A program made the position numbers and the translations under genes. A DNA stretch of 13,774 nt, taken from contig DBHE01000209.1 in the NCBI GenBank assembly GCA_002296055.1, forward strand, positions 1 through 13,774, read 5' to 3'. Of this stretch, positions 1 through 13,322 are shown in pieces (the first letter of the stretch is position 1; each line of letters starts with the position of its first letter). Below the pieces are notes generated by a model. That model did no database searches. It worked only from the letters and a program-made list of their open reading frames with translations, and had not been told where the DNA came from. This stretch comes from Pseudomonadaceae bacterium UBA836 (GTDB taxonomy: Bacteria; Pseudomonadota; Gammaproteobacteria; Pseudomonadales; Pseudomonadaceae).

Positions 1-762
1 AACAACGAGGGCAACCTGAAGTGGCAGACCCTGTCGCGCAACCAGGACAACCTGAACAACGCCATCAGCCGCGCGCCGTCTGGCATGTTCAACTCGGCCT
101 GTTCGCTGGCACCGGTCATGATCTTCCTGGATGACCACAAGGCCGAAACCCTGCAGCGCGCAACCGCCGCCGTGGAAGAGTTCGCTGCCGAGCACAACAC
201 CGACGACATGCAGTTCCTGCTGGCGGCCGGTAACGCCGGTATCGAAGCGGCTACCAACGTAGTGATTGAAGCGTCCCAGACCAAGATGCTGTTGACCGTG
301 TACGCGGTCGTTATCCTGATGTGTCTGGTGACCTTCCGCTCGATCCGTGCGGTGCTCTGTATCATCATTCCGCTGGCACTGACCTCGGTACTGGCCAACG
401 CACTGATGGCCTTCCTTGGCATTGGTGTGAAAGTCGCAACCCTGCCGGTAATCGCGCTGGGTGTGGGTATTGGTGTTGACTACGGCATCTATATCTACAG
501 CCGACTGGAGACCTACCTGCGTCAGGGCCTGCCGCTGCAGGAAGCCTACTATGAAACCCTGAAGACCACAGGTAAGGCTGTGACCTTCACCGGCTTCACC
601 CTGGCTATCGGCGTAGCGACCTGGATCTTCTCGGCCATCAAGTTCCAGGCTGACATGGGCATTCTGCTGACCTTCATGTTCCTGTGGAATATGTTCGGCG
701 CCCTGTGGCTGCTGCCTGCACTGGCGCGCTTCCTGATCCGTCCGGACAAGCTGCGTAGCTGA
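1..762 (+). CDS. RND/MMPL superfamily transporter, C-terminal part (5' end outside window)
   Basis: The frame is open from base 1 and ends at a TGA at 760-762, giving 253 visible residues of a larger protein; the first ATG (85) is internal. The fragment begins with a soluble, periplasmic-looking segment (about residues 1-93). It then has about five hydrophobic helices near 96-112, 117-142, 147-167, 196-213 and 219-247. The motif GVGIGVDYG at about 154-162, with an acidic residue inside a membrane segment, is typical of the second membrane half of RND/MMPL exporters, which use proton flux to move lipophilic substrates. The helix arrangement fits the C-terminal half of a roughly 750-850 residue inner-membrane protein. 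Substrate cannot be read from this part. A terminator follows 15 bases after the stop, so it is the last gene of its transcript. Confidence 0.85.
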   Translation, partial: NNEGNLKWQTLSRNQDNLNNAISRAPSGMFNSACSLAPVMIFLDDHKAETLQRATAAVEEFAAEHNTDDMQFLLAAGNAGIEAATNVVIEASQTKMLLTVYAVVILMCLVTFRSIRAVLCIIIPLALTSVLANALMAFLGIGVKVATLPVIALGVGIGVDYGIYIYSRLETYLRQGLPLQEAYYETLKTTGKAVTFTGFTLAIGVATWIFSAIKFQADMGILLTFMFLWNMFGALWLLPALARFLIRPDKLRS

Positions 763-827: not shown

Positions 828-2045
828 TCAGTCCACCAGCGCACCATTGATAATGGCGCGCAGCTCCTGGCGCACGGCATAGCTGGAGGAGGGGATCAGT
901 TGGGTCATGAACACCATCAGCAAATCTTCTACTGGATCGATGAAGAAGTTGGTGCTGGCCATGCCGCCCCAGCCGTACTCGCCCGTTGAGCCGTTGGTCT
1001 GTGACTTGGCGACGTCGATCTTGACTGAAAAGCCCAGGCCAAAGCCGCTGCCGTCATAGGGCGTCTCGCTGAAGGAGCCGACGGAGACACCCGGCAGGTC
1101 CTGATTGTTGGGCAGGTGGTTCATGCGCATGAATTCCAGCGTCTTGCGACCGATGATGCGTGCGCCGTCCAGCTCGCCACCGTTGGCCAGGGCTTGGGCG
1201 AAGCGGTAGTAGTCGTCGATGGTGGAGACCAGCCCGCCGCCACCGGACAGATAGCCGTGAGCTTTGCTGAAGTTGGAATCCTGCGGGTCGTCCTGCAGGC
1301 TGAAACTGCCGCCGGGCTGGAACTGGTAGCAGGCAGCAAAGCGCGCCAGCTTGTCGGCGGGGACGGTGAAGAAGGTATCCACCATGCCCAGTGGTGCGAA
1401 GATATGGCGCTGGAAGTACTCATCCAGGGTCAGGCCGGATAGTACCTGTACCAGATAGCCGCACACGTCGGTTGCGACAGAGTAGTTCCAGGCGGTGCCG
1501 GGTGAAAACTCCAGTGGTAGGCGGGCCAGATCTTCGATTAACCGATCCAGGGTCAGGCCGGGGCCGCCGTCGAGTTTGAGGCTGCGGTAGGCGGCGTCGA
1601 CGTTGGTGCGGTTCATAAAGCCGTAGGTCAGGCCCGACTGATGGGTGAGCAGATCGCGGATGGTCATCGGCCGTTCGCAGGCGGTAGTCAGTATCTGCGG
1701 GTAGACGCCGGTCTTGTACACGCGCAGGTTGCTCCAGCTGGGGATGTACTTGTGCACCGGATCATCGAGCAGAAAGCGTCCTTGCTCGTAAAGCTGCATC
1801 ACCGCAATGGAGGTGACCGGCTTGGTCATCGAGTAGATGCGGAAGAGGGTGTCGCGCTCGACCGGCAGGCCGCGCTCGACATCGCGCAAACCCTGTGCAT
1901 GGCAGTACACCAGTTCACCGCGGCGGGCGACCAGCGTCAGGGCGCCAGGCAGCTTGCCTGCGTCGATGTAGGCTGATTGCAGATGGGAGCCGATGCGCGA
2001 AATCCGTTCCAGGTCGACGCCGGCGATGCAGTTGCTGTGTGCCAT
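828..2045 (-). CDS. Serine hydrolase, class C beta-lactamase/EstB-like esterase family
   Basis: With the ATG at 2045 the protein has 405 residues, usual for EstB-type carboxylesterases. It carries the penicillin-binding fold signature S72-M-T-K75 (catalytic serine and general-base lysine). Also present are LLTHQSGL (132-139), the second-motif tyrosine Y188-S-V, and a late Y-G-W-G-G motif (357-361) where the third active-site element of this family lies. The family (COG1680) includes esterases, D-aminopeptidases and AmpC. No signal peptide is visible at the N-terminus ([10 protein letters not shown]), so a cytoplasmic esterase is likelier than a periplasmic beta-lactamase. The frame stays open upstream to 2303, but that extension is arginine-rich, unlike the family, and would overlap the divergent gene at 2255, so 2045 is preferred. 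The Shine-Dalgarno match is weak (GGA about 12 bases upstream). Substrate unknown. Confidence 0.85.
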
Positions 2046-2079
2046 GTTTAGAGGTATCCGTGGTGTGCGTGAACCCAGA

Positions 2080-2085
2080 ATAGTA
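2080..2085 (-). promoter_or_regulatory. Candidate -10 box for the serine hydrolase
   Basis: Read on the minus strand the hexamer is TACTAT, 4 of 6 to the sigma70 -10 consensus. A poor -35 (TTCTGT) lies 17 bases upstream. It would give a leader of roughly 30 bases. This is a weak match and is offered only as the best candidate in the spacer. Confidence 0.2.
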
Positions 2086-2114
2086 GCCTGCCAGGTGAGC
2101 TGACAGAAGGCGCA

Positions 2115-2135
2115 GACGGTGGCAAATGCCACGTC
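2115..2135. promoter_or_regulatory. Inverted repeat in the divergent spacer (possible operator)
   Basis: GTGGCA (2119-2124) and TGCCAC (2127-2132) are perfect inverted copies around AA. The symmetry continues as GAC (2115-2117) and GTC (2133-2135) with one unpaired G. It lies between the divergent start codons at 2045 and 2255, as expected for a dimeric regulator site, but no regulator gene is next to it. Confidence 0.35.
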
Positions 2136-2254
2136 ATGCGGGGAGGTGATAGCGGTTACAAAATAAAGTCGCTTTTGCCCCTCGGCGCCTCTTGTGCGGC
2201 GGCGCGGCGCGGAGTAAAAAGCGCGCACCGTAGCGGCCTGAGGATTGCGATGAA

Positions 2255-2632
2255 ATGAGCGACCATTCGCCCTGTCTGAACTGCGGCGCCTGTTGCGCCA
2301 CATTCAGGGTGTCTTTTTACTGGGGAGAAACCGATAGTGCCCCAGGGGGTGACGTACCCACCCACCTTACCGAACAATTAACGCCTTACCGTGCCTGCAT
2401 GCAGGGCACCAATCAGCCCAAGCCGCGTTGTGTCGGCTTGCTGGGAACGGTTGGAGAAGGCGTGCGTTGCAATATTTATGAGCAGCGCCCCAGTCCGTGC
2501 AGGGAGTTTCCCTATCACGGCGAAAACGGCCAGGACAGTCCGGAATGTCAACGCGCCAGAGCCGCCCACGGCTTGCCCCCGTTGCCATCCAACCCGACGC
2601 GTCCGCGACTGATTCCGACGATCGCAGCTTGA
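2255..2632 (+). CDS. YkgJ-family cysteine-cluster protein
   Basis: This is a 125-residue protein with nine cysteines. An N-terminal cluster C7-x-x-C10-G-A-C13-C14 is followed by C48, C59, C72, C82 and C98, including the family block [14 protein letters not shown] (72-85). This pattern defines the YkgJ/UPF0153 family (CxxCxxCC), small soluble proteins presumed to bind zinc or an iron-sulfur cluster; their molecular role is not established. The ATG at 2255 is preceded by GAGGA (2240-2244) at a good spacing of 10 bases, which supports the start; an overlapping ATG at 2250 is out of frame. It stands alone, divergent from the serine hydrolase and convergent with the metallopeptidase gene, so the neighbourhood gives no functional hint. 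Confidence 0.88.
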
Positions 2633-2669: not shown

Positions 2670-3815
2670 TCAGTCGGCGCTAGTGCGCGTGCTGCTATCG
2701 GCAATCAGGGCATGTACCAGGTACAGCTTGCGCAGGCTGTCGACATTGAGCACAAAGGGGTAGATATCGGTCTGCCCCATACTGCGCGCCAGCACGTTCA
2801 GCACGCTGCTGAGCTGCACCCAGCGATTGCAGAAATCCAGAAAGGCCTCGCGCTCGTCTTGACCGAGTGGCAAGGGCGGTAGCTGGCTGCTGTCGAAGGG
2901 CTCGACCTGCATCGCCAGGCTGCCGGGTTGAATGCCAAAGTCCAGCGCGGCGTTCAGGGTATCGGTCATGTGCAGATAGTGCGCCCAGGTTTCGGCCCAG
3001 TCCTCCCAGGGGTGGGCGCTGGCGTACTGGCTGATGAAATGTTGCTGCCAGTTGCTGACGGGGTGGTCGTAGTGCGTTTTGAGGGCGGCTTGGTAGTCAG
3101 CGCGCTCATCGCCGAACAGCTCGCGGTAGGGCGTCAGCCAGTCGCTGTTTTGCACCAGCCGATCCCAGTAGTAGTGGCCGCTCTCATGGCGAAAGTGGCC
3201 AAGCAGGGTGCGATAGTGTTCGTGCAGTTGCTGGCGGCGCTGCTCGCGGTTGGCGGGGTCTGCTTCGGCGAGATCCAGGGTGATTTCGCCGGCCATGTGT
3301 CCGGTGGTCACCGGTGGGCCGCCAGGCAACTGGCGCAGCAGGTGAAAACCGAGCCCATGCTCGGGGTCCAGCCTGCGTGGCACCACGGGCAGCCCAAGCA
3401 GCACCAGCTGGGCTACCAGCCTGCGTTTGGCTTGCTCCACCTCTAGCCACAGAGCGCCGCTATCGGGCTGGCTGAGGTCGGGGATGGTCAGGTTGAGGTC
3501 ACATGACAGACATAGGCTGGCGTCGCTATCGGCCGGAATCATCCAGTTGCATTGGGCGGGGCCTTTGCGGTTACCGCAGCAGCGCACAGCGCGCGGGCTG
3601 TCCTCTTGGGTCTGCCAGTGCTCTGCGTCGGGCTGCAGGGCCAGCAGCTGGCCTGAGGCCGGCAGATAGCCCAGCTCGGCACCGCAGCGCAGGCAGTGGG
3701 TATTGTCGAAGAATATTGGCTGGCCGCAGCTGCAGCGCTGCAGCAAGCCGTTGGGGTGATAATCGAACAGCTGTTGTCCGCGACTGCGTTGCAGCAGTTG
3801 CTCGAAATAGCTCAC
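2670..3815 (-). CDS. Zinc-ribbon metallopeptidase (putative zinc-binding peptidase, HExxH)
   Basis: This is a 381-residue protein. The N-terminus holds a zinc-ribbon-like region with C28-x-C30 and C41-x-x-C44, then further cysteines at 79, 80, 89, 102 and 105. The C-terminal half carries the zincin motif H210-E-S-G-H214 (two zinc ligands and the catalytic glutamate). The later block W-A-E275-T-W-A-H is a plausible source of the third ligand. This is the layout of the uncharacterised 'putative zinc-binding metallopeptidase' family (zinc-ribbon plus Peptidase_Mx type domain), as I recall it. No signal peptide is seen, so it should be cytoplasmic. It is the third gene of the leftward operon, 18 bases after the alpha-E stop. 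I infer that it trims or removes a peptide made by the upstream ligase. The start is GTG, supported by AGGAGG just upstream. Confidence 0.85.
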   Translation of the reverse strand: MSYFEQLLQRSRGQQLFDYHPNGLLQRCSCGQPIFFDNTHCLRCGAELGYLPASGQLLALQPDAEHWQTQEDSPRAVRCCGNRKGPAQCNWMIPADSDASLCLSCDLNLTIPDLSQPDSGALWLEVEQAKRRLVAQLVLLGLPVVPRRLDPEHGLGFHLLRQLPGGPPVTTGHMAGEITLDLAEADPANREQRRQQLHEHYRTLLGHFRHESGHYYWDRLVQNSDWLTPYRELFGDERADYQAALKTHYDHPVSNWQQHFISQYASAHPWEDWAETWAHYLHMTDTLNAALDFGIQPGSLAMQVEPFDSSQLPPLPLGQDEREAFLDFCNRWVQLSSVLNVLARSMGQTDIYPFVLNVDSLRKLYLVHALIADSSTRTSAD

Positions 3816-3819
3816 GGGG

Positions 3820-3825
3820 CCTCCT
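3820..3825 (-). promoter_or_regulatory. Strong ribosome binding site for a GTG start
   Basis: On the minus strand AGGAGG lies four bases (CCCC) before the GTG at 3815-3813. The perfect Shine-Dalgarno core fixes the start of the metallopeptidase despite its GTG codon and rather short spacing, and gives this gene its own translation signal inside the operon. Confidence 0.75.
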
Positions 3826-3833
3826 GTGCCCGC

Positions 3834-4790
3834 TCAACTGCTGCTCTGCAGCTGCTCCGGGCTGGCGAAATAGGTTTGGCTGATCGCTGCGTGCAGCTCG
3901 TCAAAGTCGATCTGAATCTCATCGACAAAGGCGTGCAGCTCATCGGGCTCGGCGGCCAGCAGGGTTACATCCGGTTTGCTCAGGTTTTGCCGGCAGGTTT
4001 CCACCTCTTGCAGTGCCAGTTCGTGCCTTGGCAGGGTCTGCAGGGCATTGGCCAAGCGTTCCATGCAGCAGGCTACGCTACGCGGGAACAGCCGATCCTG
4101 CAGCAGGAAGCTAAGCACATCCGGGCCACGAATGCGCAACCGAACATGCTGACGATACATCTGATAGCCGGTCAGTGACTTGAGTACGCTCATCCACTGC
4201 AGCGTTTCAAAGGGTTTCAGGTCTTCTGCGCTACGTGGCAACAGGTTGGCCGAGCGTACGTCAATGATGCGCGTGGTCATGTCGGCGCGCTCCAGTTGGC
4301 GCCCGAGCATCAGGAAGGAGCGCACCTGGGTGTAACTCAGGGTGCCCTCAATAAGCCCATTGACGGTTTGGCAGCTGCGGATCACCCGGCCGAGAAAGGC
4401 GTCTCGCCGGCGCGGTGTGATACCCGAGCCCACCTGGTCCTTGACGCTCAGGTACAGCTGGTTAACCTCTTCCCAGATCTCACGCGGGATTACGTCGCGG
4501 GTGGTGCGCAGGTTTTCGCGGGCGGCGGCCAGGGAGCTGAGAATCGAGCCGGAGTAGCGGCGGTCACCGCACATGAACGACAGCACGCTGGCTTCATCGC
4601 GAGTGGGGTAGAGCTCATCGAACAGGGCGTCGTTACCGGTGATGGCGATGATTTCGGCCCAGCCAAGCTTGGTCGAACGAGGCAGGTCGAGCAGCAGGTG
4701 GCTGTTGACGCTCAGCAGGCGAGCGGTGTCTTCGGCGCGCTCCAGGTAGCGGGCCATCCAGTAAATATTTTCGGCTACACGTGAAAGCAT
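3834..4790 (-). CDS. Stand-alone alpha-E domain protein (DUF403)
   Basis: This is a 318-residue, mostly alpha-helical protein that begins with the family signature L-S-R-V-A-E-N-I-Y-W-M-A-R-Y-L-E-R-A-E (2-20). A second, internal repeat-like motif G-R-Q-L-E-R-A-D lies at 163-170, and A-R-E-N-L-R at 90-95. Alpha-E (DUF403) is found almost only beside, or fused to, circularly permuted ATP-grasp enzymes and is predicted to work with them; its chemistry is unknown. The gene follows the ATP-grasp gene with only three bases between stop and start (TGA-CTC-ATG). A GGGA about ten bases before the ATG lies within the upstream gene, so the two are probably translationally coupled and made in fixed ratio. 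A fused version of the same pair is present at 9842-12427. Confidence 0.93.
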   Translation of the reverse strand: MLSRVAENIYWMARYLERAEDTARLLSVNSHLLLDLPRSTKLGWAEIIAITGNDALFDELYPTRDEASVLSFMCGDRRYSGSILSSLAAARENLRTTRDVIPREIWEEVNQLYLSVKDQVGSGITPRRRDAFLGRVIRSCQTVNGLIEGTLSYTQVRSFLMLGRQLERADMTTRIIDVRSANLLPRSAEDLKPFETLQWMSVLKSLTGYQMYRQHVRLRIRGPDVLSFLLQDRLFPRSVACCMERLANALQTLPRHELALQEVETCRQNLSKPDVTLLAAEPDELHAFVDEIQIDFDELHAAISQTYFASPEQLQSSS

Positions 4791-4793
4791 GAG

Positions 4794-6248
4794 TCAGTTC
4801 CCTGCCAGGTCAACGATCCAGGTGTCTTTGCTGCCGCCGCCCTGCGAGGAGTTGACGACCAGCGAACCTTTGGTAAGTGCGACCCGGGTCAGGCCGCCGG
4901 TAGTAACCCAGGTGGATTCTCCAGACAGGATAAAGGGCCGCAGGTCCACGTGGCGCGGCTCCATGCTGTTGCCGCACAGCGTTGGCGAGGTGGACAGGCT
5001 GAGTGTCGGCTGCGCCATGTAATTGCGAGGGTCGGCTTTGATCAATTCGGCAAAGGTGTCGCGTTCCTTTTTAGTCGCATGCGGGCCGATCAGCATGCCG
5101 TAGCCGCCCGATTCGTTAGCCGGCTTGACCACCAGCTTATCGAGGTTGTCGAGTACGTACTTGCGGTCATCGTCGAACATGCACAGGTAACTCGGCACGT
5201 TCGGCAGCAGCGGCTCCTGGCCCAGATAGTATTCGATGATCTTGGGTACAAAGGCGTAGATCACCTTGTCGTCTGCCACGCCGGCACCCGGTGCGTTGGC
5301 CAGTGCCACGTTGCCCTTACGCCAGGCGCGCATCAGGCCGTGTACGCCGAGCATGGAGTCGGGGTTGAATACCTCGGGGTCGATGAACATGTCATCAACG
5401 CGGCGGTAGATCACGTCCACCCGCGCCAGCCCGTCGATCTTGCGCATGTAGACGCAGTCGTCGTCACCTACTACCAGGTCTGTGCCCTCGACCAGTTGCA
5501 CACCCATCTGCTGGGCCAGATAGGAGTGCTCGTAGTAGGCGGAGTTGTAGATGCCGGGAGTCAGGATAACGATGCAGGGGTCGTCGCCGGGGCGCGGCGA
5601 CAGCGAGGCGAGCGTGTCATACAGCTGGGCGGTGTAGTCGTCGACCGGCTGGATCAGCCCGGTGGCAAACAGGTCGGGCATAACCCGTTTGGTCACGTTG
5701 CGGTTTTCCAGCATGTAGGACACGCCGGAGGGGACGCGCAGGTTGTCTTCCAAAACGTAGAGCGTACCGTCCTTGTCACGCACGAGATCTGAGCCGCAGA
5801 TGTGGGCCCAGACGTTATGCGGGGTAGAGATGCCGACGCACTGCGGCCGGAAGTTAACCGACTGGGCCAGGACTTCCTTGGGCACCACGCCATCCTTGAC
5901 GATTTTCTGGTCGTGGTAGAGGTCGTCGATAAACATGTTCAGCGCCTGTACGCGCTGCTTGAGCCCGGCGTCGGTCTTCTGCCACTCGGCCAGCGGGATG
6001 ATGCGCGGCACGATGTCGAAGGGCCAGGCCCGGTCGATCATGTTGCCTTCGGTGTACACGGTAAAGGTGATGCCCATCAGCTGGATGGCTACCTCGGCCG
6101 CGGTCTTGTGCTCGTTCAGCTCGCGGGCGTCGAGATTGGCGAGATACTGGCACAACAGCTCGGCCTCCGCGCGGGGCTGTCCCGGTGCCTTGATGAGTTC
6201 GTCGTAAAAGCCCTTCGAAGTGTAATCGTCCCAGTTTACTTTACTCAT
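4794..6248 (-). CDS. Circularly permuted ATP-grasp enzyme (stand-alone)
   Basis: This is a 484-residue protein of the circularly permuted type 2 ATP-grasp family (DUF404/DUF407, COG2308), predicted to join a carboxylate to an amine using ATP. Visible blocks are G-S-D-L-V-R-D (152-158), the acidic/metal-type motif Y-V-L-E167-D168-N169-L-R171-V-P-S-G (164-175), and L-V-E-G-T-D-L (252-258). Further on are the nucleotide-binding-like V-V-K375-P-A-N-E-S-G-G-Y-G (373-384), H-V-D-L-R-P-F (433-439), and a C-terminal S-Q-G-G-G-S-K-D-T-W (468-477). All these elements look intact, so the enzyme should be active. It is the first gene of the leftward operon, divergent from the transglutaminase-amidoligase gene and coupled to alpha-E. 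The upstream Shine-Dalgarno is weak. The acceptor and donor substrates are unknown. Confidence 0.93.
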   Translation of the reverse strand: MSKVNWDDYTSKGFYDELIKAPGQPRAEAELLCQYLANLDARELNEHKTAAEVAIQLMGITFTVYTEGNMIDRAWPFDIVPRIIPLAEWQKTDAGLKQRVQALNMFIDDLYHDQKIVKDGVVPKEVLAQSVNFRPQCVGISTPHNVWAHICGSDLVRDKDGTLYVLEDNLRVPSGVSYMLENRNVTKRVMPDLFATGLIQPVDDYTAQLYDTLASLSPRPGDDPCIVILTPGIYNSAYYEHSYLAQQMGVQLVEGTDLVVGDDDCVYMRKIDGLARVDVIYRRVDDMFIDPEVFNPDSMLGVHGLMRAWRKGNVALANAPGAGVADDKVIYAFVPKIIEYYLGQEPLLPNVPSYLCMFDDDRKYVLDNLDKLVVKPANESGGYGMLIGPHATKKERDTFAELIKADPRNYMAQPTLSLSTSPTLCGNSMEPRHVDLRPFILSGESTWVTTGGLTRVALTKGSLVVNSSQGGGSKDTWIVDLAGN

Positions 6249-6394
6249 TCAGCTACTCTATTCGCCAGGGAAAGGTTGGTGTGCAACCTGCAATTGCCAT
6301 ACCAGACGCACTGGATCGGGGCACGGTCCTGTTCAGCGCGTTGTTACAGGCGGCAGCGAAGATTGTCACCCACCTGTGTTAAAGGTTGAGTATC

Positions 6395-6412
6395 GCTGTG
6401 CCTTGGCACAGC
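6395..6412. promoter_or_regulatory. Perfect 18-base dyad in the divergent operon spacer (candidate operator)
   Basis: GCTGTGCC (6395-6402) and GGCACAGC (6405-6412) are exact inverted copies around TT. The dyad lies in the 217-base spacer between the divergent starts at 6248 and 6466. A -35-like TTGTCA (6363-6368) lies upstream on the plus strand, but its -10 partner is poor (GAGTAT at 6388-6393, spacing 19). A dimeric regulator bound here could control both operons; a short RNA hairpin in the rightward leader is the alternative. Confidence 0.5.
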
Positions 6413-6465
6413 CATTGCTTCTACTGTCGCGGGCACGGCCGCACACTTGATCGGGATCATCTGTC

Positions 6466-9400
6466 ATGACAATCCGCGTAGCACTAAGGCACCAGACCAC
6501 CTACGATTTCGACAAGCCGGTTGCGCTGTCGCCGCACCTGGTACGCCTGCGTCCGGCGCCGCATTGCCGCACGCCGGTTGATGCCTATAGCCTCAAGATT
6601 AGCGGAGGTGAGTACTTCATCAACTGGCAGCAAGATCCTTTTGGCAACCATGTGGCCCGCCTGGTGTTTCCAGAGAAGATGCGCCACCTGTCTATCGAAG
6701 TAGAGCTGGTTGCCCCGATGACGGTAATCAACCCCTTTGATTTCTTTGTCGAGGAGTACGCCGAACAGTTCCCCTTTGATTACCAGGATGGCTTGCGCAA
6801 GGAGTTGGCGCCTTACCTTGAAAGCCCCAAGCCAGGGCCCTTGTTGAGCAAATGGCTTACCTCTGTCAGCCGCGAAGAGTGCTCAATCACTGATTTTCTG
6901 GTCAGCCTCAATCAGCGGCTGGCCAACGATATTACCTACGGTATTCGCATGGAGCCGGGGGTGCAGACGCCCGAGCAGACCCTGGAATTGGCCAGCGGAT
7001 CCTGCCGTGATTCAGCCTGGCTGTTGGTACATATCTGCCGACAACTGGGGCTGGCAGCGCGCTTTGTCTCAGGCTATCTGGTGCAACTGACCGCCGACGT
7101 CAAAGCGTTGGATGGCCCTTCAGGGACCGAAACCGACTTTACCGATCTGCACGCCTGGACCGAGGTGTTTGTGCCCGGTGCCGGCTGGATCGGCCTGGAC
7201 CCGACGTCAGGCCTGTTGGCGGGCGAGGGGCATCTGCCGCTGGCGGCCACCGCTGAGCCGGCTAGCGCGGCGCCCATCACCGGCGCAAGCGACCCCTGCG
7301 AAGTCGAGTTTGGCTTTGACATGAGTGTCACTCGGGTGCACGAAGACCCGCGGGTAACCAAGCCTTACAGCGACAGCCAGTGGGAGGATATTCTGGCGCT
7401 GGGGCAGCAAGTTGATGCGCGCCTGGATGAGCTGGACGTGCGTTTGACCATGGGCGGCGAGCCGACCTTCGTGTCTATCGACGACATGGATGCACCAGAA
7501 TGGACCATAGCGGCGCAAGGTCCGACCAAAAGGGGGCTCTCCGAACGTCTGCTACGCCGCCTGCGACCCCATTTTGCGCCCCATTCGCTGATCCATTATC
7601 AGCAGGGTAAATGGTATCCGGGCGAGCCGCTGCCACGCTGGGCGCTAGCCTGTTACTGGCGTCGTGACGGCAAGCCGATGTGGCAGGATGATCGCTGGCT
7701 GGCTGACGTGGACCGCGATTACGGCGCGGACGAGCACAGCGCCAAACGCTTTGCCGAGGCGCTGATGCGCCGCCTGGGCGTGTCGGGTAAGCATTTGCTG
7801 CCTTGCTTTGAAGACGCCTACTACTACCTCTGGCTGGAACGTACTCAGCCCATCGACGTTGACCTGCGCGGTGAAGACCTCAAGGACGATGAAAATCGCC
7901 TGCGTCTGGCGCGTCTGCTGGAGCGTGGTCTTGACCGTACCGTGGGCTACACATTGCCGCTGACACGGGCAGAGCAGGGCGGCTGGCTCAGTGGCGATTG
8001 GCCCCTGCGGCGTGAGCAGTTGTATCTGGTACCGGGTGACTCGCCCATGGGCCTGCGCCTGCCGCTGTCGTCGTTGCCCATTGCCCGGCGTGAAGAGGCG
8101 CAGCCGTTGTCGCTGTTTGACGAGCCCGCGCCGCTGCCCGACCTGCACGGCGAGGTGGCGAGCCGCTACAGCGCTGTGCACAGCATCCGCCACGACGGCA
8201 TGCATCACATGGCAGCGGGGCAGGACTGGCAGGAGCAACTGCCCGAGTTGAGCGACGGTGGTGTCATCGGCACTGCGCTGTGCATCGAGCCGCGTGACGG
8301 CAAGTTGTTTATCTTCATGCCGCCGCTGACCGAGCTTGAGTCCTATCTGGAGCTGTTGGCGTGCATTGAGCACACGGCCGCCGAGCTGGATATGCCGGTG
8401 TGCATTGAGGGCTATGCGCCGCCTTCGGATAACCGCATCGAAAAATTCATGATCACCCCGGACCCGGGTGTCATCGAGGTGAACATCATGCCGGCGGCCA
8501 GCTGGCCGGAGCTGGTGCGCAACACCGAAATTCTCTACGAAGAGGCGCGCCAAACCCGTCTGGGCACCGAGAAGTTTATGCTCGACGGCCGCCATACCGG
8601 CACCGGCGGTGGCAACCACGTTACCCTGGGCGGCCGCACGCCGGCCCAGTCGCCGTTCCTGCGTCGGCCTGATCTGCTGGCCAGCATGCTGACCTACTGG
8701 CAGCATCATCCGAGTCTGTCATATCTGTTCTCCGGCATGTTTATCGGCCCGACCAGTCAGGCGCCGCGAGTGGATGAGGCGCGTTACGAGGCGCTGTATG
8801 AGCTGGAAATTGCGCTGTCGCAGATGCCGGAAGGTGAGGTGCCGCAGCCCTGGCTGGTTGACCGCCTGGTGCGCAACCTGCTGACGGATATCACCGGCAA
8901 TACCCACCGTGCCGAGTTTTGCGTCGACAAGATGTACTCGCCCGACAGCGCCACCGGGCGCCTTGGGCTGCTGGAGCTGCGCGGTTTTGAAATGCCGCCG
9001 CATGCGCGCATGAGCTTGATGCAGCAACTGCTGATTCGCGCTTTGGTGGCGCGCTTCTTTGCCCACCCGTATCGCCAGCCGCTGGCGCGCTGGGGCACCG
9101 CCCTGCACGACAAGTGGATGATGCCGCATTACCTCTGGCGTGACCTGTGCGAGGTGCTGGCGGATCTGCGCGAGCACGGCTTTGACTTTGCAGAAGACTG
9201 GTTCGCGCCTTTTCTGGAGTTTCGCTTCCCCCATGCTGGCGAGGTGCAATACGGCGACACGCGTATCACTCTGCGTCAGGCTATCGAGCCGTGGCATGTG
9301 CTGGGCGAGGAAGTCAGCGGTGGCGGCACGGCGCGCTATGTGGATTCCTCGGTCGAACGGCTTGAGGTCAAACTGCAGGACTACAACCCGGCGCGTCACG

Positions 9401-9786
9401 TATTGACCTGCAACGGCTTCCGGGTGCCGCTGCAGTCGACCGGTGTCGCGGGCGAGGCGGTGGCAGCGGTGCGCTATCGTGCCTGGCAGCCACCGTCGGC
9501 GCTGCATCCGACCATCGCCGTGCAGGCGCCGCTGGTGTTTGATCTGGTCGATACCTGGAACGCCCGCTCGCTGGGCGGCTGCACCTATCATGTGGTGCAC
9601 CCGGCCGGACGCAACTTCGAACGCTTCCCGATCAATGCCAATGAAGCAGAAGCACGGCGCATGGCGCGCTTCTGGGAATACGGTCACACCCAGGGGGCGA
9701 TGGCCGAGATCCAGCAGGCACCCGGACAAGAGTATCCACATACGCTCGATCTGCGGCGCGCCGGGGTGCGCACTCCTGGTTTATAA
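6466..9786 (+). CDS. Transglutaminase-like domain fused to DUF2126 GS-like amidoligase
   Basis: This is an 1106-residue two-part protein. Residues 1-90 match the N-terminal domain of bacterial transglutaminase-like proteins. The papain-fold core follows with a complete predicted triad: C180 in S-G-S-C-R-D, H229 in D-L-H-A-W-T-E, and D245 in G-L-D-P-T-S-G. After a linker (about 262-285) the rest is DUF2126, described as a circularly permuted glutamine-synthetase-like amidoligase. Conserved-looking blocks are T-M-G-G-E-P-T-F (328-335), a P-D-P-G-V-I-E-V-N segment (665-673) and G-T-G-G-G-N-H-V-T-L-G-G (712-723), likely parts of the nucleotide/metal site. One polypeptide therefore joins a thiol hydrolase or acyl-transfer fold with an ATP-dependent ligase. 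No signal peptide. The ATG is preceded by GGGA (6453-6456). It is the first gene of the rightward operon; the next starts 55 bases on. Confidence 0.92.
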   Translation: MTIRVALRHQTTYDFDKPVALSPHLVRLRPAPHCRTPVDAYSLKISGGEYFINWQQDPFGNHVARLVFPEKMRHLSIEVELVAPMTVINPFDFFVEEYAEQFPFDYQDGLRKELAPYLESPKPGPLLSKWLTSVSREECSITDFLVSLNQRLANDITYGIRMEPGVQTPEQTLELASGSCRDSAWLLVHICRQLGLAARFVSGYLVQLTADVKALDGPSGTETDFTDLHAWTEVFVPGAGWIGLDPTSGLLAGEGHLPLAATAEPASAAPITGASDPCEVEFGFDMSVTRVHEDPRVTKPYSDSQWEDILALGQQVDARLDELDVRLTMGGEPTFVSIDDMDAPEWTIAAQGPTKRGLSERLLRRLRPHFAPHSLIHYQQGKWYPGEPLPRWALACYWRRDGKPMWQDDRWLADVDRDYGADEHSAKRFAEALMRRLGVSGKHLLPCFEDAYYYLWLERTQPIDVDLRGEDLKDDENRLRLARLLERGLDRTVGYTLPLTRAEQGGWLSGDWPLRREQLYLVPGDSPMGLRLPLSSLPIARREEAQPLSLFDEPAPLPDLHGEVASRYSAVHSIRHDGMHHMAAGQDWQEQLPELSDGGVIGTALCIEPRDGKLFIFMPPLTELESYLELLACIEHTAAELDMPVCIEGYAPPSDNRIEKFMITPDPGVIEVNIMPAASWPELVRNTEILYEEARQTRLGTEKFMLDGRHTGTGGGNHVTLGGRTPAQSPFLRRPDLLASMLTYWQHHPSLSYLFSGMFIGPTSQAPRVDEARYEALYELEIALSQMPEGEVPQPWLVDRLVRNLLTDITGNTHRAEFCVDKMYSPDSATGRLGLLELRGFEMPPHARMSLMQQLLIRALVARFFAHPYRQPLARWGTALHDKWMMPHYLWRDLCEVLADLREHGFDFAEDWFAPFLEFRFPHAGEVQYGDTRITLRQAIEPWHVLGEEVSGGGTARYVDSSVERLEVKLQDYNPARHVLTCNGFRVPLQSTGVAGEAVAAVRYRAWQPPSALHPTIAVQAPLVFDLVDTWNARSLGGCTYHVVHPAGRNFERFPINANEAEARRMARFWEYGHTQGAMAEIQQAPGQEYPHTLDLRRAGVRTPGL

Positions 9787-9841
9787 TCGACGGCCTCACA
9801 CATCAGGCTGCTGATTCTCAGCCGTCACCGGGAAGCGTTGC

Positions 9842-12427
9842 ATGCAACAAGCTGTCAATCTGGGGTCTGCCGTCAAGGCCATTCTCGGCGAGTACGCAGG
9901 ACACGCCGGGCACGACGAGCTGCTGGGCGAAGATCAGCAGCCGCGTGCGCCTTGGCAGGCCTTGCTGGAAGATGTCGCGCGCCTTGGCCCGGACGTGCTG
10001 GCCGGCCGCTGGGAAGAAACCCAGAATCTGCTGCACGAGAACGGCGTTACCTTCAACCCCTACGAAGACGATCCAGGTCAACTGCGCTCCTGGCAACTGG
10101 ACTGTCTGCCCTGGGTAGTCGGTACCCAGGAGTGGGATGAACTGGAGGCGGGCCTGCGCCAGCGCAGCCGCCTGCTTGAGCACATTCTGGATGACCTCTA
10201 CGGCGCGCGGCGCATTATCAGCGAAGGGCTGCTGCCACCCGAACTGATCTTTACCCACCCCGGGTTTCTGTTCTCTGCAGCGGATGATCCACCTCAGGTT
10301 GAGCGGCCTCTGCTGATATTCCATGGTACTGACCTGGTGCGCGACAGCCAGGGCGGTTGGCAGGTGCTGGCCGATTGGACCCAGTCTCCCGCCGGCGCCG
10401 GCTACGCTCTGGAGAACCGCATTACCCTGGCGCGCGCCTTGCCAAGTATCTACCGCGAGGCGCCAATCAAGCGGCTGGCGGGCTTTCTGCAGGCGCAGCA
10501 CCGCTGTCTGGCCAGTCTCGCCAATGGGCAGCGCGAGCAACCCAATATCGTGCTGTTGTCGCCGGGGCCGGGCAGCCCCGGCTATTTCGAGCATGCCTGG
10601 CTGGCCAACTACATGAACTTCTCGCTGGTTGAGGGCGACGATCTGGTGGTGCGTGACGGCCAAGTCGCCATGCGCACCCTGGGTGGCCTCAAGCAGGTGG
10701 ATGTGATTCTGCGCCAGATTAACGATCCCTGGTGTGACCCGTTAGAACTGCGCCCGGACTCGCTGCTTGGGGTGCCGGGGCTGTTGCAGGCCGCGCGTTG
10801 CGGCAACGTGCACATCGCCAATGCGCTGGGCGCGGGTATTCTTGAACATCCGGGGCTATCGGCCTTTTTGCCGGCGCTGTGTGAGGCGCTGCTGGGCGAG
10901 GAGCTGTTGTTGCCTTGCCGAGAAACCCTCTGGTGTGGCGATCCTCGCTCACTGGAGCAGGTTAAGACAGAGATCGATGGCTGGATTCTGCGTGATATCA
11001 GCAAGCCTGGGCGTCTCTACCATGCCGATCAAATGGGCCTTGAAGCGCTGCGCGACCTGCGTATCAGCATGGAACGGCATCCTTATCTGTTCACCGCCCA
11101 ACGGCCTGTTGAAGCGGCGGTGACCCCAGGCTTCAACCCGCAGACGGGTACGCTGGAGCGGCAAAATGCGACGCTGCGCTTTTTCAGCCTGGTTGAGCCT
11201 GATGATCTGACCAAGCCGGTCAATGAGCGAAATTATCGCGTCATGCCGGGCGGGCTGGCCTGGGTTGGTGAGCCAGGTGCGCCGCTGATGAAGAGTCGCC
11301 TGGTGAAGGATATCTGGGTGATGGCGCCGGTGCCCCAGCCGCATATCAGCCTGCTGCGGCAGGCGTTGGGGCCAATCGTCGTGACCCGTGATGGCAAGGA
11401 CCTGCCGTGCCGCGTGGCAGAAAGCCTGTTCTGGATGGGGCGTTATGGTGAGCGACTGGACACGCGTGGGCGGCTGCTGCGCGAGGCGCTGGCAAGGCTG
11501 CTGCAAGATGACCGGCAGGAGAGCGGTTCGCAGCTGATGCCTGACCTGTTGCGTGCGCTGGAAATCCCGCTGGACCCGGCTGAGCTTGAGGAAGAAACGC
11601 CCGCCAGTAGCCGGTTCTCGCGAGAGTACATCGCCACCCGTGATCGCTTGCTGCAGCTGTTCGCCGATGATCTGCCCGATGGCCTGCCGGTGCTGTTCGG
11701 CCACTTTGTACGCAACAGCCGCGCCGTGCGCGATCACCTGGGTGATGACACCTGGCGCGCCATCAACAGTCTGCGGCAGCACTTCAACAGCATGTCGCGC
11801 ACGCGGGGCGTGGTGGTGGGGCAGCGCCATCTGGAAGCCATGGTGCTGGATCTGGCTGCCTTTTTTGGTCTGTGCAACGAAACCATGCCGCATCACTATG
11901 GCTGGCGTTTTCTCGATATCGGGCGTTTTCTCGAGCGCGCCCTAGGTTCGCTTGAGCTGCTCAAACTGGCACTGCTGACTGCCGACGAGCCCGGCATTCC
12001 GCTGTGGGAGGTGGTACTGGCGACCACGGACAACCTGACAGTGTATCGCCGTCGCTACCGCTCACAGCTGCACCCGCTGGCGATTCTTGACCTGCTGTTG
12101 TTCGATGAGGCCAACCCGCGCTCTATCGGCTATATGCTCAAGCGCCTGGGCTCGCAAATCGCCAAACTGCCCTCGCCAGGCAGCTCACCGTACCGCAATC
12201 AGGAGCAACGGCTGATCATTCAGGCCACCAGCGCCTTGCATCTGGTCGATATCGAGACGCTGGCGGACCTGGAGGGTTCGGCATCGGCGCGCGAAGCGCT
12301 GAACAACCTGCTTGACCAGTTGATCCAGCCAATGGCCGAGTTGTCCAACGCCATTACCCACAGTCACTTCAGTCATGTTGAGGCGCCACGCCAGTTGGTC
12401 AGCATGCACTACAGCGGCCAGGCCTGA
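9842..12427 (+). CDS. Circularly permuted ATP-grasp fused to alpha-E domain
   Basis: This is an 861-residue fusion: ATP-grasp at about 1-515 and alpha-E at about 523-855. The alpha-E part starts C523-R-V-A-E-S-L-F-W-M-G-R-Y, the same signature that opens the stand-alone alpha-E. The ATP-grasp half aligns in order with its stand-alone neighbour (G-T-D-L-V-R-D, L-V-E-G-D-D-L-V-V, R-P-D-S-L-L-G-V, K-D-I-W-V). It differs at the presumed active site: A177-D-W179-T-Q181 replaces E-D-N-L-R, and R384-D-I-S replaces K-P-A-N with loss of the following S-G-G-Y-G. It may be a pseudo-enzyme or have changed substrate. GGGAAG (9830-9835) six bases before the ATG supports the start. The second transglutaminase starts 10 bases after its stop. 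Confidence 0.92.
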   Translation: MQQAVNLGSAVKAILGEYAGHAGHDELLGEDQQPRAPWQALLEDVARLGPDVLAGRWEETQNLLHENGVTFNPYEDDPGQLRSWQLDCLPWVVGTQEWDELEAGLRQRSRLLEHILDDLYGARRIISEGLLPPELIFTHPGFLFSAADDPPQVERPLLIFHGTDLVRDSQGGWQVLADWTQSPAGAGYALENRITLARALPSIYREAPIKRLAGFLQAQHRCLASLANGQREQPNIVLLSPGPGSPGYFEHAWLANYMNFSLVEGDDLVVRDGQVAMRTLGGLKQVDVILRQINDPWCDPLELRPDSLLGVPGLLQAARCGNVHIANALGAGILEHPGLSAFLPALCEALLGEELLLPCRETLWCGDPRSLEQVKTEIDGWILRDISKPGRLYHADQMGLEALRDLRISMERHPYLFTAQRPVEAAVTPGFNPQTGTLERQNATLRFFSLVEPDDLTKPVNERNYRVMPGGLAWVGEPGAPLMKSRLVKDIWVMAPVPQPHISLLRQALGPIVVTRDGKDLPCRVAESLFWMGRYGERLDTRGRLLREALARLLQDDRQESGSQLMPDLLRALEIPLDPAELEEETPASSRFSREYIATRDRLLQLFADDLPDGLPVLFGHFVRNSRAVRDHLGDDTWRAINSLRQHFNSMSRTRGVVVGQRHLEAMVLDLAAFFGLCNETMPHHYGWRFLDIGRFLERALGSLELLKLALLTADEPGIPLWEVVLATTDNLTVYRRRYRSQLHPLAILDLLLFDEANPRSIGYMLKRLGSQIAKLPSPGSSPYRNQEQRLIIQATSALHLVDIETLADLEGSASAREALNNLLDQLIQPMAELSNAITHSHFSHVEAPRQLVSMHYSGQA

Positions 12428-12431
12428 GAGG
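12426..12431 (+). promoter_or_regulatory. Ribosome binding site overlapping the upstream stop codon
   Basis: GAGAGG overlaps the TGA at 12425-12427 and lies six bases before the GTG at 12438. It decides the start of the second transglutaminase: the in-frame ATG at 12375 would lie inside the upstream gene and lacks a comparable site. Confidence 0.7.
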
Positions 12432-12437
12432 TTTCCG

Positions 12438-13322
12438 GTGAAGTACCTGTTACGCCACAGTACCCGTTATCAATACAGCGGCCCGGCCAGCCTGAGTCAG
12501 AACGAGGCGCGTATTCTGCCTCGGGTGCTGCCCTGGCAGGAGTGCAGCAACAGTCAACTGACGATCAGTCCGCGGCCTGACCGACAGCGCGAGCGCACCG
12601 ATTTTTTCGGCAACCGGGTGGTGTATTTTTCCATCGAGTCCTTGCACGACAGCCTGGACGTTAGCGTCAGCAGTGAAATCATCACCCATCCAAGACCCTT
12701 GGCTGACATCTTCTCGGGCATCGCCTGGGAGCAAGCGGTGCTGGAACTGCGCCAGGACCCGCGTCGCACCAACCGTGATTGTCTGGATGCGCGGCTGTAT
12801 GTGCTCAGCTCGCCCTTTGTGTATCAAAGCGCCGAACTGGCCGAGTTTGCCCGCAGCAGTTTCACGCCCGCACGTAACCTGATTGATGCGGTGCTGGAGC
12901 TGAATACCCGGATTTTCACCGAATTCACCTACGACCCTGAATTCACTACTGTGGCCACCCCCTTGCAGGACGTACTGGCCAGCAAGCGTGGCGTCTGCCA
13001 GGACTTCGCACATCTGGCCATCGGTTGTTTGCGCTCGCTCGGGCTGGCAGCGCGTTATGTCAGCGGCTATATGGAAACCATGCCGCCGCCGGGGCAGGAG
13101 AAACTGCTCGGCGCGGACGCCACCCACGCATGGCTGGCGGTGTTCATACCGGGCTGGGGCTGGCTTGAAATTGACCCGACCAACGGCTGCGTGCCGGACG
13201 AGCGTTACATCGTGCTTGGTTGGGGGCGTGACTTCGCCGATGTGACCCCCCTCAAGGGCGTGATGACGGGCGGCGGCGAGCATGTGCTTAGTGTGGCGGT
13301 GGATGTGATGCCGCAGGCCTAG
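12438..13322 (+). CDS. Transglutaminase-like cysteine protease-fold protein
   Basis: This is a 294-residue protein when started at the GTG at 12438. The sequence right after it, K-Y-L-L-R-H-S-T-R-Y-Q-Y, is the usual beginning of the bacterial transglutaminase N-terminal domain. The frame extends to an ATG at 12375, but those 21 residues are unlike the family and overlap the preceding gene. The core carries a full predicted triad: C187 in R-G-V-C-Q-D-F, H230 in A-T-H-A-W, and D246 in E-I-D-P-T-N-G. In bacteria this fold more often acts as a peptidase, amidase or acyl-transferase than as a protein crosslinker. It is the last gene of the rightward operon, translationally close-coupled to the fusion gene, and resembles the N-terminal part of the protein at 6466-9786. 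No signal peptide is seen. Confidence 0.92.
   Translation: MKYLLRHSTRYQYSGPASLSQNEARILPRVLPWQECSNSQLTISPRPDRQRERTDFFGNRVVYFSIESLHDSLDVSVSSEIITHPRPLADIFSGIAWEQAVLELRQDPRRTNRDCLDARLYVLSSPFVYQSAELAEFARSSFTPARNLIDAVLELNTRIFTEFTYDPEFTTVATPLQDVLASKRGVCQDFAHLAIGCLRSLGLAARYVSGYMETMPPPGQEKLLGADATHAWLAVFIPGWGWLEIDPTNGCVPDERYIVLGWGRDFADVTPLKGVMTGGGEHVLSVAVDVMPQA

Follow-up and report, generated by a model that had tools for sequence, protein, structure and literature searches.

Contig DBHE01000209.1 of the Halopseudomonas-like Pseudomonadaceae bacterium UBA836 (assembly GCA_002296055.1), whose 13,774 nucleotides we refer to as the window, encodes six contiguous genes between positions 2670 and 13322 that combine circularly permuted ATP-grasp (CP-ATP-grasp), Alpha-E, DUF2126, transglutaminase-like and metallopeptidase domains (Table 1). 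All six open reading frames (ORFs) are confirmed over this span, each with a strong Pfam match, in agreement with the domain inventory given in the initial annotation. Genes 1 to 3 make up operon A (module A) and genes 4 to 6 the divergent operon B (module B). Neighboring genes are separated by 3 and 18 bp in A and by 55 and about 10 bp in B, a spacing that fits two operons, and the divergent gene order is identical in 19/19 genus regions that span the whole block (of 20 regions; L092 is cut by its contig), so the two back-to-back operons proposed earlier are borne out. The most likely start of gene 6 is the GTG at 12438, which is preceded by GAGG; the ORF start at 12375 overlaps gene 5. DUF2126 is found in 22 of the 37 genus genomes. 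The Peptidase_Mx gene is an optional part of the locus, since it is missing in four genus members (L086, L088, L095 and L097) that have the remaining genes, and no match to it was found anywhere in those four genomes.

Table 1. Genes and candidate regulatory elements of the two divergent operons (positions in the window).
Feature	Position	Strand	Description
Gene 1	2670..3815	-	Zinc-ribbon + Peptidase_Mx metallopeptidase, HESGH motif; Pfam E 3e-26 / 2e-96
Gene 2	3834..4790	-	Stand-alone Alpha-E, ER motif retained; Pfam E 1e-86
Gene 3	4794..6248	-	Stand-alone CP-ATP-grasp, CP_ATPgrasp_2; Pfam E 7e-166
Gene 4	6466..9786	+	N-terminal Transglut_core fused to DUF2126; Pfam E 1e-16 / 0
Gene 5	9842..12427	+	CP_ATPgrasp_2 fused to Alpha-E; Pfam E 2e-119 / 9e-63
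Gene 6	12438..13322	+	Stand-alone transglutaminase-like; Transglut_core E 2e-19 in ORF 12375-13322
Sigma54-type -24/-12 element, operon A	6289..6304	-	TGGTATGGCAATTGCA; 2 mismatches to TGGCAC-N5-TTGCW
Sigma54-type -24/-12 element, operon B	6404..6419	+	TGGCACAGCCATTGCT; perfect match
NtrC-like half-palindrome GCAC-N7-GGGC	6308..6322	+	Imperfect, tentative; closest relatives only
Inverted-repeat-like TGTCAC-N6-GTGTTA	6364..6381	+	Between the divergent promoters; tentative candidate enhancer

Genes 3 and 5, the only two CP-ATP-grasp matches in the window's assembly (84% complete), have very different presumed active sites. Gene 3 retains all of the residues presumed to contact Mg and ATP (E167-x-N169, K375 and GGYG381-384), a set common to 67/67 stand-alone relatives and likewise present in 3n6x, and is predicted from these residues to be an active ligase. 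In gene 5, the corresponding E, N and R are replaced by A177, W179 and Q181, and GGYG is lost. The presumed metal site, E167 and N169, is found in 67/67 stand-alone relatives vs 0/37, 0/119 and 0/79 fused homologues, three sets that overlap and of which 0, 2 and 5 members are gapped at the site. The set of 119 holds the closest homologues only (the best 120 of 6819 matches, one protein of <600 amino acids left out). The distant set consists of 79 loci inside and outside the class, from the best 80 of 588 confirmed places, and is biased towards pseudo-ligases because one of its three peptide patterns includes Q replacing R171; the sets of 37 and 119 are free of that bias. Gene 5 is under purifying selection, and the fused protein is 96-97% identical to its nearest named homologues, which come from Pseudomonas sp. 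and Halopseudomonas. The initial annotation had implied two working ATP-grasp ligases; we predict that gene 5 instead encodes a long-conserved pseudo-ligase that has lost its presumed metal and glycine-loop residues. Alternatively, gene 5 could be repurposed rather than dead, its ATP-grasp fold using altered metal ligands for another nucleotide-dependent reaction. In the biased distant set, D168 is retained in 72 and Q stands for R171 in 68 of the 74 ungapped members, while R437, K474 and D475 are retained in 79/79, which suggests that loss in the gene 5 family is patterned rather than random. Against this, neither of the presumed Mg ligands is left, the glycine loop is lost and we identified no alternative site; we regard such a reaction as unlikely.

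The catalytic residues of the transglutaminase-like and peptidase partners are intact, as had been claimed for them. Both triads are complete, in gene 4 (C180/H229/D245, invariant in 28/28) and in gene 6 (Cys 12996-12998, His 13125-13127 and Asp 13173-13175; at least 97% conserved, 35 aligned), and the HExxH motif of the gene 1 peptidase is at least 97% conserved (30 rows). The DUF2126 domain of gene 4 has a glutamine-synthetase fold, and its ligase activity is putative. It is 6-15% identical over aligned residues to glutamine synthetase and gamma-glutamylmethylamide synthetase and, unlike them, is fused to a transglutaminase-like domain. Each module thus has a single ligase fold whose key residues are conserved: that of A is ATP-grasp, that of B glutamine-synthetase-like (GS-like). 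The alignments comprise 67/69 stand-alone ATP-grasp rows (the other two are fragments of the disrupted L131 copy described below), 64/68 Alpha-E, 42/45 DUF2126 and 35/40 transglutaminase rows, and all 37 fused and all 30 peptidase rows.

The nearest fold matches are small-molecule ligases: glutathione synthetase, Gss (entries 2iob and 2io7), trypanothione synthetase and Cp1B (PDB 9cjn), the last of which features in a publication about the E-64 pathway (PMC12568646). Gss resembles our locus in combining a Cys amidase half and a ligase of CP-ATP-grasp type, but the genes here are separate and include a GS-like second ligase. At the sequence level, comparison of Gss with the gene 3 profile gave no match (hhalign probability 0.1). 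These fold matches favor a small-metabolite pathway, wherein the ligases would build a soluble amide or peptide-like compound, comparable to the products of the glutathione, glutathionylspermidine and fungal E-64 ligases, the peptidase-like partners would mature or recycle it, and no protein would be tagged. A metagenomic clone with ATP-grasp, alpha-E, transglutaminase and protease genes, jj117, is tabled in a review under antinematode activity, compound unknown, though the passages on it list these genes without showing proof that they cause the activity (PMC7764037). We recognize no transporter, carrier protein or tailoring enzyme among the six genes, and regard a metabolite pathway as quite possible, if short of probable.

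The distribution of these genes argues that the two operons belong to one system, as initially proposed. Across 229 genomes of the class, CP-ATP-grasp is present in 63, and DUF2126 (38/229), full Peptidase_Mx (31/229) and the fused protein (17/229, every one also with a stand-alone copy) occur only within these 63. Peptidase_Mx matched 38 genomes overall, 7 of them, including one of the 63, through weak partial matches (E >1e-10) that we did not count as full. In this sample, module B occurs only with module A, and not the reverse; the absence of co-distribution that the initial annotation had named as grounds for rejecting its reading is not observed. In one genome (G117), the stand-alone ATP-grasp beside module B is in pieces (L131), and an intact copy lies at L132 with Anbu and Peptidase_Mx. 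By P values that ignore phylogeny, from loci some of which share a genome and stretches that differ in length, DUF2126 within the 63 goes with the fused protein (15/17 with it vs 23/46 without; Fisher P 0.008) and tends to avoid Peptidase_Mx (13/31 with it vs 25/32 without; P 0.005), and Anbu, present in 26 of the 50 class loci examined, is found in 2/16 fused-protein loci vs 24/34 other class loci (P 0.0002). Module B and Anbu thus seldom share a locus. In the distant set of 79 named loci, which reaches beyond the class, we found the stand-alone ATP-grasp in 40, DUF2126 in 52, transglutaminase in 74 and Anbu in 12; the nesting is shown for the class only, because many of these 79 stretches are cut by contig ends and the count covers stretches rather than whole genomes.

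The presence of the proteasome-like Anbu at 26 class loci is what might be expected of a protein tagging and trimming system. Here, the ligases would attach an amino-acid or peptide tag to proteins under nitrogen stress and the peptidases would detach the tag or degrade the protein, as has been proposed in print for the Anbu operon (PMC5666114, PMC6376114). Against this, one Anbu query had no match in 36/37 genus genomes, and Anbu is described in the available part of one report as having no peptidase activity on the substrates assayed (PMC6376114). The window itself has no Anbu in its ORF list or Pfam matches. Protein tagging is a somewhat unlikely role for this locus.

Each operon is preceded by a sigma54-type element. 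The operon B element has at most one mismatch in 21/21 genus regions with upstream sequence (15 perfect; 2 more are contig-cut), and the operon A element at most two in 21/22 (the exception is L082), counts that are not independent because the genomes are related. Both elements lie mostly at a similar distance from the called starts across the genus, and the remaining intergenic DNA between the operons has mostly diverged. Over the whole window, 11 sites match the sigma54 pattern with at most two mismatches vs 11.0 expected, which is chance level, so what speaks for the promoters is where they lie, the perfect match of the operon B element and their conservation. Outside the genus, 10/58 operon-head regions (9 loci) have a site with at most one mismatch vs 0.37 expected, and the maximum in 300 shuffles was 3; the 58 remain after leaving out upstream regions that lie inside operons or are shorter than 150 bases. 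The sister genome G008 (L158-L173) contains 16 perfect sites vs 3 and 3 for the control pattern. Between the two promoters, the GCAC-N7-GGGC site is not above chance in the window, and the TGTCAC-N6-GTGTTA sequence has a left half conserved in most genus members and a right half conserved in some. Published data tie related loci to nitrogen: Burkholderia cenocepacia I35_5080-5083 is reported to be NtrC- and sigma54-dependent (PMC5491218), Pseudomonas putida PP_2685-2688 is tied to nitrogen limitation (PMC7801951, PMC3325844), and a marine metagenome study ties the same domains to urea metabolism (PMC3597751). Promoters of this type often serve genes that respond to starvation, and with one on each operon the system probably answers to such a signal, nitrogen limitation being the likeliest.

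In the model that we favor, and to which we give somewhat better than even chances, the locus is a variant ATP-grasp/Alpha-E/transglutaminase system that lacks Anbu and has a sigma54-type promoter in front of each of its divergent operons, probably induced by starvation (most likely nitrogen limitation), in which gene 3 and the GS-like domain are the ligases and gene 5 is a non-catalytic partner. The safest statement is a minimal one, namely a two-ligase (ATP-grasp and GS-like) amide-forming system that also comprises Cys- and Zn-dependent enzymes, either hydrolases or transferases, and an ATP-grasp/Alpha-E partner without catalytic function. Mechanistically, gene 3 would activate a carboxylate as an acyl-phosphate and form an amide bond, with Alpha-E as a docking partner, and the GS-like domain of gene 4 would activate a gamma-glutamyl-type carboxylate and add a second amine. 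Gene 5 would have given up catalysis and, through its Alpha-E half, may hold substrate or product or regulate gene 3. Transfer or hydrolysis of the conjugate would fall to the zinc peptidase and to the Cys sites of the transglutaminase-like domains. The product could be a protein tag or a small peptide-like metabolite, and the make-and-remove cycle suggested in the initial annotation is plausible.

Several observations weigh against this model. Of the 79 named loci, 39 show no stand-alone ATP-grasp in the stretches covered, many of which are contig-cut. Distant fused proteins retain K375 in 52/79 cases and have Asp at E167 in 7/79, which leaves room for some residual contact with nucleotide or metal in the family. 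Outside the genus, 48/58 operon heads are without a sigma54 site, and the opposite strand of the same 58 regions gave 3 sites, above the shuffle mean. In the genus regions, the stretch between the two promoters has no well-matching NtrC site that is conserved. By eye, some of the perfect sites in G008 precede flagellar or chemotaxis genes; with others before transport or scavenging genes, sigma54 control alone does not name nitrogen. Nor, to our knowledge, does any member of the system have a known substrate or product. In P. putida, loss of rpoN still leaves PP_2686-2688 up 14-20-fold, so control there does not lie with sigma54 alone, and the Anbu gene PP_2685 is hardly up in the wild type (1.1-fold) (PMC7801951). 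Finally, the available part of one study reports that no specific interaction was detected among the Anbu-operon proteins (PMC6376114).

CP-ATP-grasp, Alpha-E and transglutaminase-like genes are clustered at this locus, as they likewise are in the Anbu operon (P. putida PP_2685-2688 and Yersinia bercovieri), for which a link to nitrogen limitation is published (PMC7801951, PMC6376114). The Anbu operon has Anbu, whereas our locus is without it and has in addition DUF2126, the fused pseudo-ATP-grasp and Peptidase_Mx. B. cenocepacia I35_5080-5083 has the same kinds of parts (DUF404/407, DUF403, a transglutaminase and a large transglutaminase), and the portion of its description available to us names neither a fused second ATP-grasp nor Peptidase_Mx (PMC5491218). 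The term "uncharacterised" in the initial annotation holds for substrate and product, but not for the system at large, as the related Anbu operon and its nitrogen-limitation response had already been published (PMC5666114, PMC6376114, PMC5491218, PMC7801951). This kind of system has been predicted since 2009, and the variant here is Anbu-less, DUF2126-bearing and equipped with a conserved pseudo-ligase. Iyer et al. (2009), as cited by others, are said to have predicted amidoligase loci with the same domain families and to have proposed peptide synthesis or tagging. The large transglutaminase of I35_5080-5083 presumably carries DUF2126. Two further papers deal with transglutaminase or ATP-grasp proteins other than these (PMC12239564, PMC12096838).

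The ATP-grasp/Alpha-E system is widespread, yet has been without a known substrate or product since the 2009 prediction. Distinguishing the probably live ligase from the conserved dead one shows which protein should be assayed and which could serve as bait, and the sigma54 elements point to a growth condition under which the product may be sought. A bolder proposal, unlikely as it stands, is that the ATP-grasp fused to Alpha-E is a pseudo-ligase of ancient origin, spread across phyla, with a residual, repurposed site that binds an activated intermediate or a nucleotide signal and thereby controls a two-ligase amide-conjugation pathway induced by nitrogen starvation via divergent sigma54 promoters. 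If true, this would be a pseudoenzyme-gated conjugation system, a kind that we did not meet in the literature examined. None of the titles and abstracts searched names a pseudo-ATP-grasp in this system; the text of Iyer et al. (2009) was outside that search and may already note inactive copies, so we claim no priority for the pseudo-ligase.

Some further observations concern relatives and neighbors of the locus. Five genus genomes encode a second, shorter Peptidase_Mx paralogue (L142-L146; about 330-345 amino acids, that of L142 cut), with neither an ATP-grasp nor an Alpha-E gene in the stretches fetched around it. The single match to the Anbu query in the genus contains a stop in the aligned stretch. 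Some of the non-flagellar perfect sites of G008 seem, by eye, to lie upstream of a nucleobase-type permease, an ABC substrate-binding protein and a TRAP-type protein, and some are inside ORFs. In Sinorhizobium meliloti, the regions reported to be associated with nodule competitiveness include a regulatory one belonging to a COG2308 (circularly permuted ATP-grasp) gene (PMC8407117). Beyond the 3' end of the window, which it overlaps, L078:13550-15553 (minus strand) appears by eye to be an electron-transfer-flavoprotein oxidoreductase; apparent etf genes come next, and parts are masked. On the other side of the cluster, positions 1-762 (plus strand) encode the C-terminal end of an MMPL/RND-type transporter, and 828-2303 (minus strand) a beta-lactamase-fold serine hydrolase whose annotated ORF start is probably too early and whose nearest NCBIfam model, AcmB, scores 173 of 550 bits, far under the cut-off. 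Adjoining the cluster, at 2255-2632 (plus strand), is a small CxxCxxCC protein, putatively zinc- or iron-chelating.
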